A stretch of DNA of 64,000 nt from Acidimicrobiales bacterium mtb01. GTDB taxonomy: Bacteria > Actinomycetota > Acidimicrobiia > Acidimicrobiales > Ilumatobacteraceae. This document shows positions 3,877 through 54,336 of the stretch, piece by piece. Under the pieces are notes generated by a model. The model was not told the origin of the DNA. It did not search any database and saw only the letters and a list, made by a program, of their open reading frames with translations. Location of the stretch: assembly GCA_004379135.1 (NCBI GenBank), contig NBNI01000004.1, forward strand, positions 1 through 64,000. The letters are read 5' to 3'. The translations under genes were made by a program, and so were the position numbers. Position 1 is the first letter of the stretch. Each line of letters starts with the position of its first letter.

Positions 3877-5175
3877 ATGACGCGGACGAACGACCTGATC
3901 CGATCGAGTTCCCCGACGTCCGACCTCAGAGTCGTCGTGATCGGGCTCGGTTACGTCGGTCTCCCTCTTGTCGTCGAGGCCTGCCGAGCGGGTTTGGCGG
4001 TCACCGGGCTCGACGTCGACCCGTCGGTGGTCGATCGTCTGCGCGAGGGATCGAGCCATGTCGACGACGTCCCGGACGCAGTGATCGCCGAGACGCTCCG
4101 ACACGGATTTCGCCCCACCATCGATGCCGGGTGCCTCGACGATGCCGATGTCGTCGTCATCTGCGTGCCAACCCCGCTGGACGCCGAGCGTGAGCCCGAC
4201 CTGACCGCGGTGCGCGCGGCGTCGGCCACGATTCGTGATCACCTGCATTCGGGGATGCTCGTGGTGCTCGAATCGACCTCGTATCCGGGGACCACCGACA
4301 CCGTCGTCAGGTCGATCCTGGAGGAGTCCGGATCGATTGCCGGATTGGATTTCCACTTGGCGTTCTCCCCCGAGCGAATCGATCCCGGCAACCCGGTCTG
4401 GGGTCTGCGCAACACTCCGAAGATCGTCGGCGGATTCACCCCGGCGTGCACCGAGCGAGCGGCTCGGTTCTACGGCCGAATCGTCGACACCGTCGTCCGA
4501 GTCTCCGGAACGCGTGAAGCCGAGATGGCCAAGTTGCTGGAGAACACCTATCGCCACGTCAACATCGCTCTCGTCAACGAGATGGCCGTCTTCTCTCACC
4601 ACCTCGGGATCGACCTGTGGGAGGCGATCGACGCGGCCCGCACCAAGCCCTTCGGCTTCGCCGCCTTCTATCCGGGGCCGGGGGTCGGAGGACACTGCAT
4701 ACCCATCGACCCGAACTATCTCTCCAGCCATCTGCGCTCGCTCGGTCACGAGTTTCGCTTCGTCGAATTGGCCCAGGAAATCAGCAACCGGATGCCCGAT
4801 TACGTCGCTTCGCGCGTGGCCGACATGTTGACGACGCGCGGTCGATCCATCCAGGGTGCGCAGATCCTCATCCTGGGAGTTACCTACAAGGCCGACATCG
4901 CCGACGATCGCGAGACCCCGGCTCGCGATCTGGTGCGAAGTCTGTTGAAGCGGGGGGCATCGGTTCGGGCCCACGATCCGATGGTGCGTTCATTCCACGT
5001 CGACGGAGTCGAGATCTCCATGGCTGCCGATCTCGACTCGGCCCTTCACGACTGCGACGTGGCCATTCTCGTCCAGGCCCACTCGGCCTACGATCTCGCC
5101 GTTCTGGCTCGCCACGCTCCTCTCGTGTTCGACACACGGGGGCGCATGCGGGGGTCGAACGTCGAGCGGTTATGA
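3877..5175 (+). CDS. Nucleotide-sugar dehydrogenase (UDP-glucose/GDP-mannose dehydrogenase family, WecC/TviB-like)
   Basis: Predicted to oxidise the C6 alcohol of a UDP- or GDP-sugar to a carboxylate using two NAD+, supplying uronic-acid-type precursors for the polysaccharide made by the following genes. The 432-residue protein has an N-terminal Rossmann motif IGLGYVGLP (about 22-30), the middle-domain segment NTYRHVNIALVNEMA, and the active-site stretch GPGVGGHCIPIDP with the catalytic Cys. The C-terminal domain begins at ILGVTYKADIADDRETPA. Length is normal for the family. I chose ATG 3877 over the in-frame GTG 3865 because TAGTGT (3863-3868) sits eight bases upstream and would overlap the earlier start. 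The stop overlaps the next start as ATGA. Which sugar is used cannot be read from the sequence. Confidence 0.9.
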   Translation: MTRTNDLIRSSSPTSDLRVVVIGLGYVGLPLVVEACRAGLAVTGLDVDPSVVDRLREGSSHVDDVPDAVIAETLRHGFRPTIDAGCLDDADVVVICVPTPLDAEREPDLTAVRAASATIRDHLHSGMLVVLESTSYPGTTDTVVRSILEESGSIAGLDFHLAFSPERIDPGNPVWGLRNTPKIVGGFTPACTERAARFYGRIVDTVVRVSGTREAEMAKLLENTYRHVNIALVNEMAVFSHHLGIDLWEAIDAARTKPFGFAAFYPGPGVGGHCIPIDPNYLSSHLRSLGHEFRFVELAQEISNRMPDYVASRVADMLTTRGRSIQGAQILILGVTYKADIADDRETPARDLVRSLLKRGASVRAHDPMVRSFHVDGVEISMAADLDSALHDCDVAILVQAHSAYDLAVLARHAPLVFDTRGRMRGSNVERL

Positions 5176-10407: not shown

Positions 10408-11664
10408 GTGATTCGGTCGGCCTCCCGTCCGCAGTTGTCGGCCCGAATCGCGTTGGTCCTGGTTTTCCTCGTCGGGATGCGCGGAGCTCTCTACCGACTC
10501 AGAATCCAGTTCGGTCCGGTCGGTGGAAGTTTTCTCGATGATCGTCCCACGCAAGTCGCCTTCTTCGTGATCTACGCGGCTGCGACGGCGCTCGGCTTTC
10601 GTGCTCTTCGACCACCCATGAGTCGGCGAACTCTCATTCCTCTCATTCCTCTCATTCCTCTCGTTGCTCTGCTGATCGTTCTGGTGGCTTCGTCGCTCTG
10701 GTCGATCGAAGCAGGCCGGACTCTCGGCCAGTCGCTTCAATTGGTCGCCGGGACGGCGGCTGTCTACGTACTGGTGTCGGGCCTCGACGAAGGAGAGTCC
10801 CATCGAGCACTCCTGATCGCCGGAACGGTTGCGACGGCAGTCAGCGTTGTCGCCGTCGCTCTCGGCTGGGAATGGTCCACCGACGGACGCGGACGGATGA
10901 CCGGGGTCTTCTTCAACCGAAACGCACTCGGGATGGTCGCGTGTTCGACTTTGTTCGCCGCGATCGTGTGGTCGTTGCAGAGAAGACGTGACCACCGAGC
11001 GGCGTTCGTCGCGGCACTCATCGGAGCCTCTGCTCTCGTCGTGTGGTGGCGAACCGGTTCGGCCACGGGCATGGTCGCGGCGGTTTCGGGAATCTTCGCC
11101 TCGGCGTGGGTCGTGGTGCGCCAACGCTCGACCGGCCGACTTCGACGTGTGATCGGCATTGCGCCCATGGTGGCCGTTCTCGGTGTGCTGGCCTTGGTGG
11201 CCGCTCGGGGCACGGTCACTCGTTGGATCGGGCGTGAACCGACCCTCACGGGCCGGACCGATACGTGGGACGTGATCATCGAGGCCTGGTACCGGCGGCC
11301 AGCCCTCGGATTCGGGTTCTTCGCGGGCTGGTTCGATCCCGAAGTGAGGGCGGGCCTGCGGGTCATCGGGTTCAACCACTGGGAAGCTCACAACGGCTAC
11401 CTCGAAGTCCTTTTCGGTGCTGGTTTGTTGGGCGTCGCGGCACTCGCATGGTTCTTGGGTGCTGTCGGTCGCGAGATCGTGGGGCATCTCGACGACGCGC
11501 GGGCGCCTTGGTGGACGGGCTCATTCGTCTTCTTCCTGGTCGCCAACGTCGGCGAGACCAACATCGCCGCGAACCGGTTCGTGTGGTTCGTCCTGGTTGC
11601 GGTCGTCGTCGAGATCTCCTCGGCGCGCCGATCATCGCCGCCCGATTTGGCCGTCACTGACTAG
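10408..11664 (+). CDS. Wzy/WaaL-like O-antigen polymerase or ligase
   Basis: Integral membrane protein of 418 residues, hydrophobic through most of its length (about 10 segments). A late periplasmic-loop motif, EAHNGYLEVLFGAGLLG (about 325-340), is the hallmark of the O-antigen ligase/polymerase domain. Predicted to polymerise lipid-linked repeat units or transfer a finished chain on the outer face of the membrane. Start GTG 10408; an imperfect -10 (TAGACC) lies just upstream. Residues about 76-84 are encoded by a perfect triple 9-bp repeat giving LIPLIPLIP. It is divergent from the priming enzyme, and its stop TAG is reused within the -10 of the next gene. Polymerase versus ligase cannot be decided from sequence. 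Confidence 0.82.
   Translation: MIRSASRPQLSARIALVLVFLVGMRGALYRLRIQFGPVGGSFLDDRPTQVAFFVIYAAATALGFRALRPPMSRRTLIPLIPLIPLVALLIVLVASSLWSIEAGRTLGQSLQLVAGTAAVYVLVSGLDEGESHRALLIAGTVATAVSVVAVALGWEWSTDGRGRMTGVFFNRNALGMVACSTLFAAIVWSLQRRRDHRAAFVAALIGASALVVWWRTGSATGMVAAVSGIFASAWVVVRQRSTGRLRRVIGIAPMVAVLGVLALVAARGTVTRWIGREPTLTGRTDTWDVIIEAWYRRPALGFGFFAGWFDPEVRAGLRVIGFNHWEAHNGYLEVLFGAGLLGVAALAWFLGAVGREIVGHLDDARAPWWTGSFVFFLVANVGETNIAANRFVWFVLVAVVVEISSARRSSPPDLAVTD
10633..10659 (+). repeat. Triple 9-bp in-frame tandem repeat
   Basis: CTCATTCCT occurs three times head to tail and is in frame, coding (Leu-Ile-Pro)x3 within a membrane segment of the polymerase-like protein. Gain or loss of units would change the protein by three residues without a frameshift. 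Confidence 0.9.
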
Positions 11665-48069: not shown

Positions 48070-49303
48070 AGGCGCTGGTGGAGTCGATGCCCGGATCCTT
48101 CGGAAGGCCCAGCACGCGCTCGGCGAGGATGTTCCGCATCACTTCGTCCGAACCGCCGGCGATGCGGCCACCGGGCGTACCGAGGATCAACTGGCTCCAG
48201 GCGTAGGTGCCCCACTCGCCGCTGTCGGCCACCAACTTGGCGCCGAGCACGTGCGACAGGAAGTCGCCCATGCGGCGCATGTTGTCGGTGCCCACCAGTT
48301 TGGCCATGCTCATCTCGGGTCCGGGCATCTGGCCGGCCTTGATCTTGTCGAGCGCGCGCTGGTTGTTGTACGCGGCCACGCGATTGTTGATGATGATGTT
48401 GGCCAGTTCGTCGCGCAGCACCGGATCGTCCTGCACGCCATAGAACTTCGCCATCTCGATGACGCGGGCGAACATGTTGATGCCGCCGCCACCGCCACCG
48501 CCACCGGCGCCGATAGCCGCGCGCTCGTTCATGAGCGTGGTGAGAGCGACGTTCCAGCCGTTGTTCACGTCGCCCAGACGATGATCATCGCGCACGCGCA
48601 CTTCGGTGAAGAACACCTCGTTGAACGACGCGCCGCCGGTCATCTGGCGCAGCGGGCGGATCTCCACACCGGGCGCCTTCATGTCGACGATGAATCCGGT
48701 GAGGCCCTTGTGCTTGGGCAGGTTCACGTCGGTGCGCGCGATGATCTCGCCGATGTCGCTGTAGTGCGCGCCGCTCGTCCACACCTTCTGGCCGGTGATG
48801 ATCCACTCGTCGCCGTCGCGCTCGGCCTTGGTCGACAAGCTGGCGAGGTCGCTGCCCGCACCGGGTTCGCTGAACAACTGGCAGCCGATGATCTCGCCGC
48901 GCCACATCTTCTGCAGGTACGACGAACGTGCGAGTTCGGAACCGTGCGCGAGGATCGTGGGCGCAACCATGCCGAGGCCGATGGTGAAGCAGCCCTGGTT
49001 CGGCACCTCGAACTTCGACTCGACCGAGTCGTACGCGCGTTGGTAGGCGGCGGGTAGCGCGCGGCCGCCGAACTGCTCGGGTCCGGTGATCCAGCCGAAG
49101 CCGGCGTCGTACTTCTTCTGACGCCATTCCTGCGCCTTGGCGACGTCGCGCCGCTCGCTCGAGCGGTCCTTCTCCTCGAACATCGACACCTTGTCGGAGC
49201 CCTCGCCCCACACGAACTTCTTCTCGGCCGCCTTGCGTTCGGCGTTGGCCTCGAGGAACTTCAGCGCTTGGGCCTGGAACTCTTCGATCGACGGATGAGC
49301 CAC
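48035..49303 (-). CDS. Acyl-CoA dehydrogenase
   Basis: FAD enzyme of 422 residues oxidising an acyl-CoA to the enoyl-CoA; substrate not readable. Marks: QLFSEPGAGSDLASLSTKAE (the FAD/substrate loop), WIITGQKVWTSGAHYSDIG, GFIVDMKAPGVEIRPL, and RIAGGSDEVMRNILAERVLG near the C-terminus. A run of eight glycines (NERAAIGAGGGGGGGGIN) encoded by mixed GGT/GGC codons around 48480-48508 lies before the C-terminal helical domain. GTG 49303 is set by a GAGGAGG Shine-Dalgarno; the much longer in-frame reading upstream is antisense shadow. Confidence 0.9.
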   Translation of the reverse strand: MAHPSIEEFQAQALKFLEANAERKAAEKKFVWGEGSDKVSMFEEKDRSSERRDVAKAQEWRQKKYDAGFGWITGPEQFGGRALPAAYQRAYDSVESKFEVPNQGCFTIGLGMVAPTILAHGSELARSSYLQKMWRGEIIGCQLFSEPGAGSDLASLSTKAERDGDEWIITGQKVWTSGAHYSDIGEIIARTDVNLPKHKGLTGFIVDMKAPGVEIRPLRQMTGGASFNEVFFTEVRVRDDHRLGDVNNGWNVALTTLMNERAAIGAGGGGGGGGINMFARVIEMAKFYGVQDDPVLRDELANIIINNRVAAYNNQRALDKIKAGQMPGPEMSMAKLVGTDNMRRMGDFLSHVLGAKLVADSGEWGTYAWSQLILGTPGGRIAGGSDEVMRNILAERVLGLPKDPGIDSTSAFKDLKTGTQKA

Positions 49304-49359
49304 GGTGTCCTCCTCGCGATTCCGGTGTCGCGAACCGTACCGCCTCCGGGCTCGCGAAC

Positions 49360-49365
49360 TAGGCT
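49360..49365 (+). promoter_or_regulatory. -10 box TAGGCT for a leaderless start
   Basis: TAGGCT, seven bases (CGAACGC), then ATG 49373, in the 69-base gap divergent from the acyl-CoA dehydrogenase. A minus-strand TACGGT at 49335-49340 could serve that gene. Confidence 0.5.
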
Positions 49366-49372
49366 CGAACGC

Positions 49373-49834
49373 ATGGGTCAGCCCGTCGTCGTCGTCGAAA
49401 AACCGAGTCGCCGCCCCGGCATCGTGCGGTTCGAAGCCAATCGCAGCCTCTCGGGCATGGGTCACGAGAGTTTCGTGAACGGAGACGCCTCGGGGCACTT
49501 CGCGCGGGCGGTCACACCGTCGGCCGAACTCGCGCGTCGCTTGTTCGCCACCGGTCGCGTGTCGGCGGTCCACGTGTATCAGAACGTCATCACGGTCGAT
49601 CTCGAGAAGGGTTTCGACTCCACCGGTCTGGCCGATGTGGTGCGCGACTTGTACCAGTACTGGAAGCCGGGCATGGAACCGCCGGCTTTCGAGGATCTGG
49701 TTCCGGCCGACGAGCCGGCAGCTGCTCCCACCATCGATGCCGGTGGCGATCCGAAGCTCGCCGAGGCACTCAAGAAAGTTCCGGCGCACCTGCTCGAACG
49801 CAGCCGCGCCGCCCGCGCCCGCCTCAAGGGCTGA
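49373..49834 (+). CDS. Nfu N-terminal-domain-like protein without cysteines
   Basis: A 153-residue protein. Residues about 15-75 (GIVRFEANRSL, AELARRLFATGRVSAVHVYQ, NVITVDLEKG) resemble the N-terminal domain of Nfu/HIRIP5 iron-sulfur scaffold proteins, whose usual core is SPLARRLF-x-GV-x-V-x-NFVTV. The C-terminal CxxC NifU domain that binds the cluster is missing, and the protein has no Cys at all; instead there is an acidic/Ala-rich linker and a basic helix (LLERSRAARARL). It may be an adaptor in Fe-S cluster delivery, but the role is uncertain. ATG 49373 is chosen over the frame start at 49268, which lies inside the divergent gene. Confidence 0.75.
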   Translation: MGQPVVVVEKPSRRPGIVRFEANRSLSGMGHESFVNGDASGHFARAVTPSAELARRLFATGRVSAVHVYQNVITVDLEKGFDSTGLADVVRDLYQYWKPGMEPPAFEDLVPADEPAAAPTIDAGGDPKLAEALKKVPAHLLERSRAARARLKG

Positions 49835-49963
49835 GACAGGGCTGACACCCGTCACAGCGTTTTCGTCCCGGAACCGGACGTTGGGCGCGCGAGACGTGCG
49901 AAGAATCACTCTGTAACTTGGTTTCCGAGGGGGCACGACCCTCCGTCCACCGCGAAACTTCTT

Positions 49964-49969
49964 TAGCCT
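49964..49969 (+). promoter_or_regulatory. -10 box TAGCCT for a leaderless start
   Basis: TAGCCT, six bases (GTCGAC), then GTG 49976. The 130 bases upstream to the Nfu_N-like gene show no clear CarH-type operator palindrome. Confidence 0.5.
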
Positions 49970-49975
49970 GTCGAC

Positions 49976-50965
49976 GTGAGCACCGAGTTCTTGACGCTGG
50001 AAGAAGCCGCCGAGCGGCTCGGCGTCCATTACATGACTGCTTACCGCTACGTGCGTCAGGGCAAGTTGTCGGCCACGCGCGTGAAGGGTGTCTGGCAGGT
50101 CACGCCGCAGGCGATCGACGAATTCCGTCAGCGTGCCAACGAGCGCAAGGAGCGTCCGCGTACCGGTGACGACTCGCGTCGTACCGGCGACTACGTGAAC
50201 GAACTTCACACCTGTCTCGTGAACGCCGACGCTGGTGGCGCGTGGGGTGTGCTGCAACGTGCGATCGACGCCGGCGGCGAGATCGGCGACGTGTACCTGG
50301 CAATCCTCGCTCCGGCCATGGCGCGCATCGGCGAAGAGTGGTCGCGCGGCGAGATCGACATCGCGATCGAACACCAAGCCACGGCCATCGCCACACGTCT
50401 CGTCGGTCAGATGAGCCCGCGTTTCGTGCGTCGCGGCCGTCGTCGCGGTGAAGTCCTCATCGGCGGCCCGTCGGGCGAACGCCACGCGCTCGCTCTGGCC
50501 ATGCTCGGCGATCTTCTTCGTCTCGAGGGTTACGACGTGTTCGACCTAGGTGCCGACACGCCGGCCAACTCGTTCGTGCATGCGGCATCCAAGATCAACA
50601 ACCTCACCGCCGTCGGTGTGAGCGTCACCACCACCGAGTCGGTGGAAGGCGCGATCGACGTGGTGCGCACGCTGCGCCGCGCCATCGGCGACGAGGTGCC
50701 GGTGGTTCTCGGCGGCTCGGCCATCAGTGGGCCCGAACACGCGCGCGAGATCGGCGCCGACTTCTACGCCAACGGTGCGCGGGGCTTCGTCGAACTGCTC
50801 GACTCCATCACCCGCGGCAGTTCCACCGTCGACGACGAGATGGCCCGCGAAACCGACTCCAAGTCGAAGGCAGCGAAGACCACGCGCAAGAAGACTCCGA
50901 GCGAAGCGGGCGGCAGTGGCGCGCAGTCGCGCCGCCAGTCCGACGCCGACGCGTCGAACAACTAG
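49976..50965 (+). CDS. CarH-like B12-dependent photoreceptor regulator with excisionase-type HTH
   Basis: Predicted light- or cobalamin-responsive DNA-binding regulator, 329 residues. The N-terminal HTH (FLTLEEAAERLGVHYMTAYR, then YVRQGKLSATRVKGVW; about 5-50) is of the excisionase/BldC type, not a full MerR domain. A four-helix B12-capping domain (about 75-150) has W122 and E132-H133, exactly the W-x9-EH motif that in CarH packs against the adenosyl group. The Rossmann B12-binding domain (about 158-280) has GERHALAL, where His170 would be the lower axial ligand (E-x-H motif), followed by YDVFDLGADTP. A disordered Lys/Ser/Arg-rich tail follows. A non-photosensory methyltransferase-like sensor is possible, but the W-x9-EH motif favours CarH. 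Confidence 0.85.
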   Translation: MSTEFLTLEEAAERLGVHYMTAYRYVRQGKLSATRVKGVWQVTPQAIDEFRQRANERKERPRTGDDSRRTGDYVNELHTCLVNADAGGAWGVLQRAIDAGGEIGDVYLAILAPAMARIGEEWSRGEIDIAIEHQATAIATRLVGQMSPRFVRRGRRRGEVLIGGPSGERHALALAMLGDLLRLEGYDVFDLGADTPANSFVHAASKINNLTAVGVSVTTTESVEGAIDVVRTLRRAIGDEVPVVLGGSAISGPEHAREIGADFYANGARGFVELLDSITRGSSTVDDEMARETDSKSKAAKTTRKKTPSEAGGSGAQSRRQSDADASNN

Positions 50966-51876
50966 CCGACGCTGACCAGATCCTCCAGCGACGCGCCCAC
51001 GGTGCGCATCGCCGCCACGGTTCCGCCATCGGCAATGACGTCGATTCCTGTGAGAAACGCGGCGTTCGGTCCGGCCACGAAATCCACGACCGCCGCGATG
51101 TCCTCGGGCGTTCCGATGCGCTGGAGCGCCGAGGCCTCGATCATCTGGCGCATCACCGACCCCGACGGGCTCTCGAATTCGGCGGTGGCCATGGGGGTGG
51201 CGACGATGCCCGGGCTCACCGACACGATGCGCGCACCCTTGCGACCCCACGGCACCGCCGCGGCCTGCACGCGCAACTGATTGGCCCGTTTGGCCACGCC
51301 GTACGCGCGTGATCCGTCGAGATGCTTCGGATCGAGAATCGTGAGACGGGCGAGATCCTTGGTGGGAGTGGTGGCCAACAGGTTCTCGTCGTGAGCGGGC
51401 AGGGGAGTGAGCGCGCCGGCGATCGACGCGATGCACACCATCACGGCACCTGGTTCGACGATGTCGGCGAACGCGTCGATCATGAGCGCGGTTCCCACCA
51501 CGTCGACCGCCACCAGTCGTGCGGGCGGCGCCTGCACGGGTGACACGCCCGCGGTATGGACGATCACCCGCGGCACGCCGAGTTGCTGGGCCGTCGCGGC
51601 CAGATGGGCCACCGCGGCCGGCTCGGCCACATCGGTCGGCACTTCGTGCACCACATGGCCGTCGTGACGCAGCAACGCCGCGCCATGACGCAGATGCGCG
51701 ACGTCGCGATCGGCCAACACGATGGGCCGACCGGCACCGAGACGGCGGGCCACCGCGAGGCCGATGCCGCCGGCCCCGGTCACCACCACGAGGTCGGGCC
51801 GGGCGTGCCCGAGAGCGGGATGCCGGTGGCCAGAAGAGCGGTGATCAGTTGAATCGTGGTCGGAAGATGTCGTCAT
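50962..51876 (-). CDS. SDR family oxidoreductase
   Basis: Short-chain dehydrogenase of 304 residues. A His/Ser-rich N-terminus of about 25 residues (DHDSTDHRSSGHRHPALGHA) precedes VVVTGAGGIGLAVARRL. Then come HTAGVSP, a Ser in CIASIAGAL, the catalytic Tyr/Lys in RAYGVAKRANQL and SPGIVATPM, with GIDVIADGG near the end. The segment between Ser and Tyr is longer than usual (about 40 residues, with DENLLATTPTKDLARL), as in 3-alpha-hydroxysteroid dehydrogenase-like SDRs, so a steroid or other hydrophobic substrate is possible. The His-rich start may bind metal. Its stop overlaps the photoreceptor stop by four bases. Confidence 0.82.
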   Translation of the reverse strand: MTTSSDHDSTDHRSSGHRHPALGHARPDLVVVTGAGGIGLAVARRLGAGRPIVLADRDVAHLRHGAALLRHDGHVVHEVPTDVAEPAAVAHLAATAQQLGVPRVIVHTAGVSPVQAPPARLVAVDVVGTALMIDAFADIVEPGAVMVCIASIAGALTPLPAHDENLLATTPTKDLARLTILDPKHLDGSRAYGVAKRANQLRVQAAAVPWGRKGARIVSVSPGIVATPMATAEFESPSGSVMRQMIEASALQRIGTPEDIAAVVDFVAGPNAAFLTGIDVIADGGTVAAMRTVGASLEDLVSVG

Positions 51877-51960: not shown

Positions 51961-51976
51961 TCGAACACCTGTTCGA
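51961..51976. promoter_or_regulatory. LexA binding site (SOS box) of imuA-imuB
   Basis: TCGAACACCTGTTCGA is a perfect match to the actinobacterial LexA consensus TCGAAC-N4-GTTCGA. It ends at the base before the -10 box, so bound LexA would cover the promoter. Confidence 0.9.
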
Positions 51977-51989: not shown

Positions 51990-52712
51990 ATGGCCCTCGA
52001 GTCCGTCCGTCGCACCCTCGCCGATCTGCCGGCGGCCGAGCGCCAACGGGCCGTGCGCGCCGTGGTGGGCGAACACGCGCCGCTCACCCTCGCGCGCGAA
52101 CGCACGCTGCCGGTGCACCCCGTGCTGCAGCCGCTCGTTCCCGCGCTCACGCGCGGCCACACCGTGCAGTGCACGGGCACGGCCGCCATGTCGTGCGCGC
52201 TCGCACTCATGGTCGCGCCCACCCAAGGCGGTTCGTGGGCCGGTGTGGTGGGCGTCCCCGAACTCGGCGTCGCCGCCGCCACCGAACTCGGTGTGGCGGT
52301 GTCGCGCACCGTGTTCGTCAGCGCACTCACCGAAGCCGATGCCCCCAACGCGCTCAGCGCTCTCGTCGACGGTGTCGACGTGGTGGTGCTGTCGCGGGCC
52401 ATCACGTCGGCGTTGTCGCCGTCGCTCGCACGACGTCTGCAAACGCGTGTGCAATCACGCGGTGGTGTGTTGGTGGTGGTTGGTGCGGCGGGTGCGTTGA
52501 GCATCGACCTGCAGCTCGTGTCGTCGGTGCACGAGTGGGAAGGCCTGGGCGACGGCCACGGTCATCTGCAGAGACGGCGTGTGTCGTTGCAACTCGACGG
52601 CCGTCGTCACGGTCGCACCACGCGTCACGACGTGTGGTTGCCCGGGCCGACCGGAGCACTCGAACCCGTGGTGCGCGAAGGCGCCGTCGTTCCGTTGCGC
52701 CGCACCGGCTGA
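51990..52712 (+). CDS. imuA: ImuA-type SOS mutagenesis protein (RecA-like)
   Basis: Partner of ImuB in damage-induced mutagenesis; 240 residues. The protein follows the actinobacterial ImuA' pattern: HPVLQPLVPALTRGHTVQCT, where the Walker A region is degenerate (no GxxxxGKT), then SWAGVVGVPELGVAAATELG and VDGVDVVVLSR in place of Walker B. ATP binding is therefore doubtful, as in other ImuA' proteins. ATG 51990 is fixed by the SOS box and -10 immediately upstream; the longer in-frame start at 51942 lies within the operator. imuB begins one base after the stop. Confidence 0.85.
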   Translation: MALESVRRTLADLPAAERQRAVRAVVGEHAPLTLARERTLPVHPVLQPLVPALTRGHTVQCTGTAAMSCALALMVAPTQGGSWAGVVGVPELGVAAATELGVAVSRTVFVSALTEADAPNALSALVDGVDVVVLSRAITSALSPSLARRLQTRVQSRGGVLVVVGAAGALSIDLQLVSSVHEWEGLGDGHGHLQRRRVSLQLDGRRHGRTTRHDVWLPGPTGALEPVVREGAVVPLRRTG

Positions 52713-52713
52713 C

Positions 52714-54336
52714 ATGGCGCCACCGCGTTGCGCCGTGGTCTGGAGTCCGGCCTGGCCGCTCACGGCGGCCGTTCTCGCCGGACGAGCGGGTCGGGGTCCG
52801 CAGTTCGATCCGCAGGCGCCCCTGGCCGTTCTGCACGCGCAGCGCGTGGTGTGCTGTTCGCCGGCGGCCGAACGCGACGGTGTGCGCGCGGGTCAGCGCA
52901 AACGCCAGGCCCAGGGTGCGTGTCCGCACCTCGTGCTCGTGCCGCACGACCCCGATCGCGATGCCCGCTGTTTCGAACCGGTGGTGCGTTCGGTCGGTTC
53001 GCTCGTTCCGCTGCTCGACGTCGAATCGCCCGGCTGTCTGCTCATGGCCACGCGCGGACCCTCGCGTTACGTGGGCGGCGACGACGCGTTGGCCCAACGC
53101 CTCGGTGAACTCGCGGTGCACGGTCTGGCCGATGCCGCCGTGGCCGGCGGTGGATTCGGTGTCGGCATCGCCGATGGTCGACTGGCCGCCACTCTCGCGG
53201 CGCGGCTCGCGGTGCAACGCGGTCGACCGGTGGTGGTGCCCACCGAACGCACCACCGAATTCCTCGCCCCGCATCCGGTCTCGGTTCTCGTCGCCGCGGC
53301 CGGCTGCGATCCGCAACTCGTCGATCTGCTCGAACGACTGGGTCTGGCGCGTCTGGGCGACGTGGCGGCGCTGTCGCCGATGCATCTGTTCGATCGCTTC
53401 GGCGCCCTGGGCGAGCGTCTGCATCGTCTGGTCACCGGGGCCGACGACACCCCGCCGTCGGCGGCGGCACCTCCCGACGACCTGAGCGTCGAACAGATCT
53501 TCGACGACCCGGTGCCGCAACTCGACATGCTGGTCTTCGCGGCCAAGGCGTTGGCCGATCGGCTCGACGGTCACCTCATCGACCACGGTCAGGTGTGCAC
53601 GCGCGTGATCGTCGAATCCGAATCCGATCACGGCGACGTCTCGCGTCGGGTGTGGTACCGCTCCGAAGGCTTGCGCGCGTCGGCTCTGGTCGATCGCGTG
53701 CGCTGGCAACTCGACGGCTGGATCAACGGCGACGATCCACCGTCGGCCGGCATCGTGCTGCTGCGCATCACGCCCACCGACGTGCGCCACGACTGGGGTA
53801 CTCAGATGGGTTTCTGGGGCGAGCGTTCGCAGGCCGACGACGCCGCGGTCAAGACCATCACGCGGCTCATCGGTCTGCTGGGTCCGCCTTCGGTCGATGT
53901 GGCGTCGTGGCGCGGCGGACGCGATCCGCACCAGGTGTACGAACTCGTGCCGGTGGCCGAACTCGGGGCCGATGGCCGACTCGCCGTCGAACGACCGGCC
54001 GACGTTCCGCCCTGGCCCGGTGCGCTGCCCGCACCATCACCGTCGGTCGTGCACGCCGAACCCATCGCCGTGTCGGTTCTCGATCAGCGCGATCGCGCGG
54101 TGTCGGTGAGCGGACGCGGTGTGGCCAGTGCGGCGCCGTGCACGCTCATGCTCGGCGATCACCGTTGCACCGTGGTGTCGTGGGCCGGGCCCTGGCCGGT
54201 CGACGAACGCTGGTGGGACACCCGCGCGCGTCGCGCCGCTCGATTCCAGTTGCTCGTGCGCGACGGCGACGACGTTCGGGCCTATCTGGCCGAAGTCGCC
54301 GCCGGTCGGTGGTGGATCACCGCCGAGTACCAGTAG
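52714..54336 (+). CDS. imuB: ImuB, inactive Y-family polymerase-like protein
   Basis: Adaptor of the mutasome; in characterised actinobacteria it links the beta clamp, ImuA' and the error-prone polymerase DnaE2. 540 residues. The N-terminal palm/finger region (CAVVWSPAWPLTAAVLAGRA, VCCSPAAERDGVRAGQRKRQ and ACPHLVLVPHDPDRDARCFE) is homologous to DinB-type polymerases but lacks their catalytic DxD and DE acids, as expected for ImuB. The C-terminal part contains RVIVESESDHGD and the ImuB-C-like region ending AAGRWWITAEYQ. ATG 52714. No dnaE2 gene follows; the next gene is a convergent regulator. Confidence 0.88.
   Translation: MAPPRCAVVWSPAWPLTAAVLAGRAGRGPQFDPQAPLAVLHAQRVVCCSPAAERDGVRAGQRKRQAQGACPHLVLVPHDPDRDARCFEPVVRSVGSLVPLLDVESPGCLLMATRGPSRYVGGDDALAQRLGELAVHGLADAAVAGGGFGVGIADGRLAATLAARLAVQRGRPVVVPTERTTEFLAPHPVSVLVAAAGCDPQLVDLLERLGLARLGDVAALSPMHLFDRFGALGERLHRLVTGADDTPPSAAAPPDDLSVEQIFDDPVPQLDMLVFAAKALADRLDGHLIDHGQVCTRVIVESESDHGDVSRRVWYRSEGLRASALVDRVRWQLDGWINGDDPPSAGIVLLRITPTDVRHDWGTQMGFWGERSQADDAAVKTITRLIGLLGPPSVDVASWRGGRDPHQVYELVPVAELGADGRLAVERPADVPPWPGALPAPSPSVVHAEPIAVSVLDQRDRAVSVSGRGVASAAPCTLMLGDHRCTVVSWAGPWPVDERWWDTRARRAARFQLLVRDGDDVRAYLAEVAAGRWWITAEYQ

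Follow-up and report, generated by a model that had tools for sequence, protein, structure and literature searches.

Carotenoid genes are the main known targets of class I LitR/CarH proteins; in Pseudomonas, class II LitR has light-inducible targets that include photolyase and furan-fatty-acid synthase genes, and a gene for an FAD-dependent oxidoreductase lies in the same region (excerpts of PMC9758184). According to excerpts of the SignatureFinder study (PMC11796333), cobalamin domains that respond to light are recognised by the elements GxxW, EH, GxxH, and GxxxP; green light elicited a response from four proteins bearing this signature, whereas one signature-free protein gave none. The same excerpts describe CtMerR, in which light drives a tetramer-to-monomer change, and report that the H132A variant of Thermus thermophilus CarH (TtCarH) fails to monomerise, whereas CtMerR, with Arg at that position, does monomerise and is light-responsive. 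Light-responsive cobalamin domains joined to helix-turn-helix (HTH) domains were already noted there, so the fusion of an HTH to a cobalamin-binding domain (CBD) is not new as such.

The window analysed here is a stretch of 64,000 nucleotides, in which an earlier note, made from the sequence alone, had proposed a CarH-type B12 photoreceptor with an excisionase-type DNA-binding domain. The gene (49976–50965, plus strand, GTG start) encodes a putative adenosylcobalamin (AdoCbl)-dependent photoreceptor and repressor of 329 aa. Three domains were placed on it, namely, a DNA-binding domain of the HTH_17/excisionase type at residues 5–53 (49988–50134, plus strand), a four-helix B12-binding_2 cap at residues 75–144 (50198–50407, plus strand), and a Rossmann-type B12-binding domain at residues 163–265 (50462–50770, plus strand). 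Both B12 domains scored above their Pfam cut-offs and are arranged as in CarH. The excisionase- or BldC-like nature of the DNA-binding part was borne out by PF12728 HTH_17 (45.5 bits; cut-off, 27) and by the NCBIfam excisionase family TIGR01764 (37.3 bits; cut-off, 28.8); the Pfam MerR model PF00376 stayed below its cut-off (15.5 bits versus 28.2).

An AF2 model of the protein was built from 64 aligned family sequences (mean pLDDT 89.1, pTM 0.73), and the comparison with CarH that had been suggested was made on it. The predicted CBD was nearest to the photocobilins 8j2w (Z 25.1) and 8j2y (Z 24.8); CtMerR matched at Z 21.5 and CarH at about Z 20. MetH and corrinoid folds matched likewise (1bmt, Z 22.4; 3ezx, Z 22.2), so the CBD fold by itself is no proof of light sensing. 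When the predicted HTH was compared in isolation, RacA, phage Xis, BldC, and MerR-family domains tied (VIA Z 6–8), Foldseek gave a best E value of 0.014 with zero hits below 0.001, and SoxR, NmlR, and the domain of TtCarH were also matched. As modelled, the HTH is a short member of the winged-HTH class common to MerR and not unrelated to MerR; because BldC and MerR share this fold, the description of the domain as standing in place of a MerR domain was an overstatement. The HTH core residues V17, Y19, T21, R24, Y25, and W40 are invariant.

All four elements of the light signature are present in the protein. The cap carries G119/W122 and E132-H133, and the Rossmann-type domain carries G167 with the axial H170 (GxxH) and G192/P196 (GxxxP); the motifs W122-x9-E132-H133 and E168-R169-H170 lie at the residues given for them beforehand. 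Conservation was assessed in best-scoring homologs, drawn from the best 80 of 289 confirmed relatives (79 loci) and the 30 best loci of the genome search; matches were present at 111 loci, and removal of the MetH locus and of identical proteins left 94 distinct homologs. Among these 94 best-scoring homologs, G119, W122, E132, H133, H170, G192, and P196 were invariant (94/94), G167 was kept in 89, and position 168 held E (73 homologs) or D (21). The position of CarH His132 is occupied by Ser123 in the window protein and, among the same best-scoring sequences, by A in 58, S in 12, E in 11, and H in 6. The genome's sole other B12-binding_2 protein lies in a 1264-aa frame, was read as MetH, and is without W-x9-EH in its translated part. 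The proposed search for cobalamin genes was answered in part, by an adenosyltransferase of the CobA/CobO/BtuR family in the genome. Judged by these sequence features, the window protein is very probably a B12 photoreceptor. It is not CarH in the strict sense because of its BldC/excisionase-like DNA-binding part, its score of 68.1 bits against a cut-off of 400 for the CarH equivalog NF052513, and Ser123 in place of CarH His132. Thus, in silico, the full light signature and the structure matches of the CBD uphold the photoreceptor part of the first proposal, whereas its CarH identity had to be loosened.

Directly upstream of the photoreceptor gene lies a conserved neighbour, an Nfu_N-like gene (nfu, 49268–49834, plus strand; a weak match, PF08712, 18.6 bits versus a cut-off of 27). 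Downstream, a short-chain dehydrogenase (SDR) gene identified by profile matches (50962–51876, minus strand) separates it from imuA' (51990–52712, plus strand; NF058630, 107.2 bits, cut-off 65) and the Y-family-like imuB (52579–54336, plus strand; PF00817 IMS, 32.9 bits, cut-off 23.2). These two genes and a perfect LexA/SOS-type box, TCGAACACCTGTTCGA (51961–51976, plus strand), the sole perfect copy in 64 kb, are found about 1 kb downstream of the photoreceptor. The likely start of imuA' is the ATG at 51990, 29 nt past the start of the LexA box; the imuB coordinates are those of the maximal ORF, its true start is probably later, and Pol IV models scored below their cut-offs on it. A DnaE2-like gene on the window's contig (C5:74161–77292) is 67–72% identical to the DnaE2 of locus L021, which itself scores 1355 against a profile cut-off of 939, and a perfect LexA-type box stands about 220 nt before the match. 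Together with a LexA gene (233.8 bits, cut-off 110.95), the genome thus holds all parts of the mutasome: imuA', imuB, dnaE2, LexA box, and LexA.

The earlier note had seen no adjacent carotenoid or photolyase gene and had looked to a distant regulon instead. On the first point we agree: neither kind of gene adjoins the photoreceptor in the window neighbourhood examined, the sole photolyase/cryptochrome match of the genome is on another contig (C1:827562–828146), and SQS_PSY (crtB-type, phytoene synthase family) had zero matches in the genome, for which reason carotenoid control in this strain was set aside. The second overlooked the local link to imuA'-imuB and the LexA box. The photolyase/cryptochrome gene (L142, C1:826062–829646 of the same genome) is followed about 15 nt on by an HrcA-like gene (assigned by eye) on the same strand. 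A cobalamin riboswitch was also considered and dropped, the window being without an Rfam match at gathering scores.

Most of the protein's relatives (best 80 of 289) come from MAGs of Ilumatobacteraceae/Acidimicrobiia, and many have isolate names of the lake, pond, or river type, in keeping with the suggested aquatic actinobacterium; a few records among these 80 are named otherwise, for example, Acidobacteria or Bifidobacterium, and plasmid CarH references were distant matches in the CBD only. Within an Acidimicrobiia clade, the gene order is a small Nfu-like gene, the photoreceptor, and imuA'-imuB, often then NUDIX and dnaE2; the imu and dnaE2 genes are those of the mutasome, which is under LexA control and carries out error-prone DNA synthesis induced by damage. 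Clustering of the same-strand downstream ORFs around the 94 best-scoring homologs placed imuA' at 62 loci, imuB at 60, NUDIX-type ORFs at 31 (two scanned), and DnaE2-type ORFs at 24. Among the matches listed for whole genomes, 44 of 66 family hits were followed by imuA' on the same strand, 38 with a gap of at most 573 nt between matched ends and six at 1.18–1.55 kb; 19 hits were unlinked, and three were in genomes without a listed imuA' match. Conversely, 49 of 120 relatives had imuA' and no family member among the matches listed; one of them, G020, has a cut-off photoreceptor-family fragment beside imuA'.

Nfu was found upstream in all 36 imu-linked loci with enough upstream DNA, the window imuA' query matched 36/38 linked loci, and imuB was kept in 21/21, whereas the outer genes were kept less (acyl-CoA dehydrogenase, 9/18; response regulator, 10/18). 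Membership of the linked set was itself decided by imuA'/imuB, which leaves the tree and the outer-gene comparison as the only independent evidence. Twenty imuA' loci that have no family member next to them were fetched; in 11, nfu preceded imuA' by 55–297 nt (matched ends), implying that the photoreceptor gene was cleanly inserted or lost between nfu and the LexA promoter.

The spacing between the photoreceptor stop and the LexA-type box was measured in 38 non-redundant linked loci (L108 left out). In 29 of them, the box was within 60 nt of the stop, with a median of 15 nt for these 29; 34 had it within 100 nt; in one of the 38, L107, a box before imuA' was looked for and none was found. With the box so close behind the stop, there is little room for a terminator, and transcription from the photoreceptor promoter should therefore enter imuA'. 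On this sequence arrangement, control of the imu genes by the photoreceptor in relatives is a plausible proposal, to which we give somewhat less than even odds. In the window strain, it is unlikely that such control through read-through still works. The SDR there is 94% identical in L003 (1061–1960), absent at the same place in L004, and represented only by a shortened remnant (10987–11226) in L009, a 94%-identical relative. In a second subgroup, the photoreceptor and imuA' are split by another minus-strand ORF, about 455 aa long, in L045 (871–2280) and L075 (10847–12230), a similarly wide spacing occurs in L031, L056, and L076, and in L055, L080, and L233 nfu is kept upstream while an imuA' match downstream is absent. 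Because the SDR interrupts the arrangement and the window's own promoter box is degenerate, the link characterises the family more than the window strain, where it may be fading.

The promoter region just before the GTG (49933–49969, plus strand) contains this degenerate copy of the relatives' box, GCACGACCCTCCGTCC (49933–49948), which mismatches the pattern TYAYGC, and a possible -10 element, TAGCCT (49964–49969), from which we infer a leaderless-type start of the photoreceptor gene. In relatives, the box (TYAYGC; fuller form, GCACGATCACGCA) is often near -39 and is followed by a TAGCCT/TACGGT-like -10. It occurred in 21 of 37 linked promoters (shuffles, 3.0 ± 1.6) and in 7 of 27 non-linked ones (shuffles, 1.9 ± 1.4), counts to be read knowing that the pattern was picked after inspection, that the shuffles kept dinucleotide blocks only, and that sequence kinship inflates the count. 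These figures cover 64 of 65 loci, as L045 lacked upstream DNA; L108 was treated as non-linked here and as linked later, its imuA' being 1552 nt on. A simple pattern count was used because the end of nfu, being conserved, misled a home-made Gibbs sampler.

A search for other targets was made with the exact 12-mer CACRRTCACGCA, which gave 70 hits in 27 genomes versus 22 for the reversed-pattern control (summed). TAnnnT followed the 12-mer by 8–36 nt in three of 68 contexts, two of them photoreceptor genes (L144 and L154) and one an unclear gene (L168); the remaining two hits (G015:C45 and G012:C179) are photoreceptor promoters. The two exact hits in the window genome (L146 and L172) are without such a -10, and the one near a photolyase looks coding. 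The exact 12-mer search of the 27 genomes therefore yielded no convincing second promoter target, although degenerate sites may exist. A wider regulon acting through the strict 12-mer pattern was rejected on this result.

Given the computed domains, light signature, fold, upstream box in many relatives, gene order, and LexA box near the photoreceptor stop, the reading that we favour, with a probability of roughly 0.47, is a light-responsive repressor of its own kind, in which a BldC-like winged HTH is combined with a CarH-type CBD and whose operon feeds the mutasome. In the dark, the photoreceptor, with its predicted AdoCbl bound, would multimerise and, as a predicted repressor, bind in head-to-tail order to repeats around position -35 of the photoreceptor promoter. 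In the predicted response to light, the Co–C bond would break, the protein would be released, and the promoter would open. In Ilumatobacteraceae and close kin, predicted read-through would usually carry transcription from this promoter into imuA'-imuB, often with NUDIX and dnaE2, so that the mutasome level would depend on light in addition to LexA. The predicted output in mutagenesis would be error-prone lesion bypass armed in sunlit water. Tentatively, we propose that a family of freshwater actinobacteria has a B12 green-light receptor wired to the SOS mutasome, such that daylight, and not DNA damage alone, would set the cells' capacity for error-prone synthesis and the mutation rate would be light-gated. 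The mutasome link is the interesting part of this reading; the domain set varies a known theme.

The strongest alternative, which we consider a real possibility, is that the B12 photoreceptor controls only itself and unlinked genes such as photolyase, its adjacency to imuA' being an inherited accident and the mutasome being under LexA alone. The LexA-type box stands directly before imuA', and because imuA' has its own LexA promoter, a photoreceptor upstream need not matter for it. A photolyase is present elsewhere in the window genome, a reverse-strand gene stands between photoreceptor and imuA' in L003, L045, L075, and the window, and L055, L080, and L233 have nfu and the photoreceptor without imu. 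In a quickly built tree with some long branches, rooted with 12 remote paralogs as outgroup, the 39 imu-linked rows all grouped in a single clade (SH-aLRT 97) of 43 rows; in the remaining four (L037, L061, L069, and L104), the downstream DNA was too short to tell. The single clade suggests one gain of the imu link, which would suit an accident. Furthermore, nfu is as conserved as the imu genes, and since the conserved block includes nfu, slow rearrangement in one clade could explain it. Three results speak for the other side: the order is kept in 39/39 informative clade members while the outer genes vary; the room for a terminator is small in most linked loci; and the exact 12-mer box was in no other promoter of the 27 genomes.

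One loss of the imu link is quite possible because the unlinked L055 and L080 sat inside the linked group on an earlier tree without paralogs, likewise quick and with some long branches; on the rooted tree they and L233 are outside. For these analyses, L103 and the partial L067 were left out and the rest was thinned to 65 at 88% identity; alignment A1 comprised 64 rows (L090 left out) and alignment A2 46 rows.

Some family members have other gene contexts. Among 20 fetched members that are not imu-linked, W-x9-EH was kept in 19, and W-x9-EH, GxxH, and GxxxP were all matched in 17 (exceptions, L231, L247, and L249). L231 (G042, minus strand, about 4032–4896) has lost W-x9-EH and kept the HTH, and it is perhaps a light-blind derivative. 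Ten neighbouring genes of such members were picked by eye and scanned: a bacteriorhodopsin-family gene adjoined three remote members (L235, 1764–5696; L236, 3058–4801; L241, 3837–5408), L235 was also near a lycopene cyclase gene, and L246 and L250 lay in clusters of CMAS and amine-oxidase genes, with a fatty-acid desaturase in one of the two. This family gene context supports light sensing.

Direct-repeat periodicity was weak in imu-linked promoters (lag 10, z 2.3) and in other members (z 2.0). Upstream of 10 of 12 remote paralogs, it reached z 5.4 at lag 10 and z 11.9 at lag 20, a partly post hoc result, since L243 and L244 were excluded after their sequences had been viewed. CarH and BldC bind DNA head-to-tail, BldC on direct repeats, and the repeats of the paralogs fit such binding by the HTH. 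The upstream DNA of the rhodopsin-side paralog group contains 10/20-bp direct repeats, for example, TTTAG-N5-TTTAG.

Two further upstream contexts were observed. A sigma-70 factor gene is directly upstream on the same strand in L048, L049, L051, L052, L077, L079, and L081; it is SigB-like (L052 was scanned and the others were assigned by clustering), and in L077 stop and start overlap. A light-controlled sigma factor is possible in this subclade. Biotin-synthesis-like genes are upstream in L026, L043, L053, L064, L065, L070, and L074, called from an aminotransferase class III in L026 (Pfam) and from BioF- and BioD-like genes recognised by eye.

It is improbable that the photoreceptor candidate senses cobalamin supply (AdoCbl versus other forms) or redox/ROS through Co–C chemistry, and not light. 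Such a role would accord with the matches of corrinoid-protein and MetH models to its domains, all below their cut-offs, and with the likeness to MetH in fold; light sensing of the window protein, for its part, is read from signature and context. Against it, green-light responses went with the signature in all four bearers and were missing from the signature-free protein (excerpts of PMC11796333), and family members adjoin rhodopsin and lycopene cyclase genes. That the protein belongs to a corrinoid methyltransferase system and bears its HTH by accident is scarcely credible, as the matches to pyl_corrinoid (65.8 bits; cut-off, 215.3), MtgC (63.9; 370), and MtbC (58.3; 350) are weak and far below cut-off, W-x9-EH and the HTH core are invariant, and by score the protein did not group with methyltransferase-activation proteins, a clustering that the earlier note had raised.

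If the conserved link to translesion synthesis is true, mutagenic repair would be anticipatory, light-armed before damage is sensed, and sunlight would be tied to evolvability in lake bacteria. The protein would also offer a green-light switch that is new, compact, and equipped with a BldC-like DNA-binding part. The daytime timing of bacterial mutagenesis would become directly testable, and the rhodopsin-side receptors provide a second testable case.

In the open-licence PMC literature, as far as the excerpts reached, no link of a B12 photoreceptor or CarH to imuB or the mutasome was found; PMC8508746, in which LitR, imuA, imuB, and dnaE2 occur together, has imuB in an SOS passage unrelated to B12 photoreceptors in the excerpts at hand. 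The mycobacterial ImuA'-ImuB-DnaE2 mutasome (excerpts of PMC10421592) has the same three genes, and the boxes here are of the LexA type. Compared with class I CarH/LitR (TtCarH, PDB 5c8d/5c8e), the window protein shares the CBD fold, the adenosyl-contact W, the E-H pair, the axial H, an N-terminal winged HTH, and, as predicted, likely DNA binding in the dark. It differs in having a DNA-binding domain of the HTH_17/BldC-like type, which scores below the MerR cut-off, and Ser in place of His132; the CarH model gives 68 of the 400 bits set as cut-off, and its neighbours, in place of carotenoid genes, are those of the mutasome. CtMerR of Chloracidobacterium thermophilum (PDB 8jbs/8jbt; excerpts of PMC11796333) resembles it in having the full signature, an atypical DNA-binding domain, and no His132. 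A phmmer comparison of the two was significant over residues 85–278 only, with the HTH outside the match. The host of CtMerR belongs to a different phylum. BldC and phage excisionase (HTH_17, TIGR01764) have the same short winged HTH as the window protein and are not known to carry a sensor domain. The photocobilins (PDB 8j2w, and 8j2y from an Acidimicrobiaceae bacterium) come nearest to the window protein in the structure of the CBD (Z 25). They contain a biliverdin domain, and AbDPcob a diguanylate cyclase as well; the window protein has an HTH instead.
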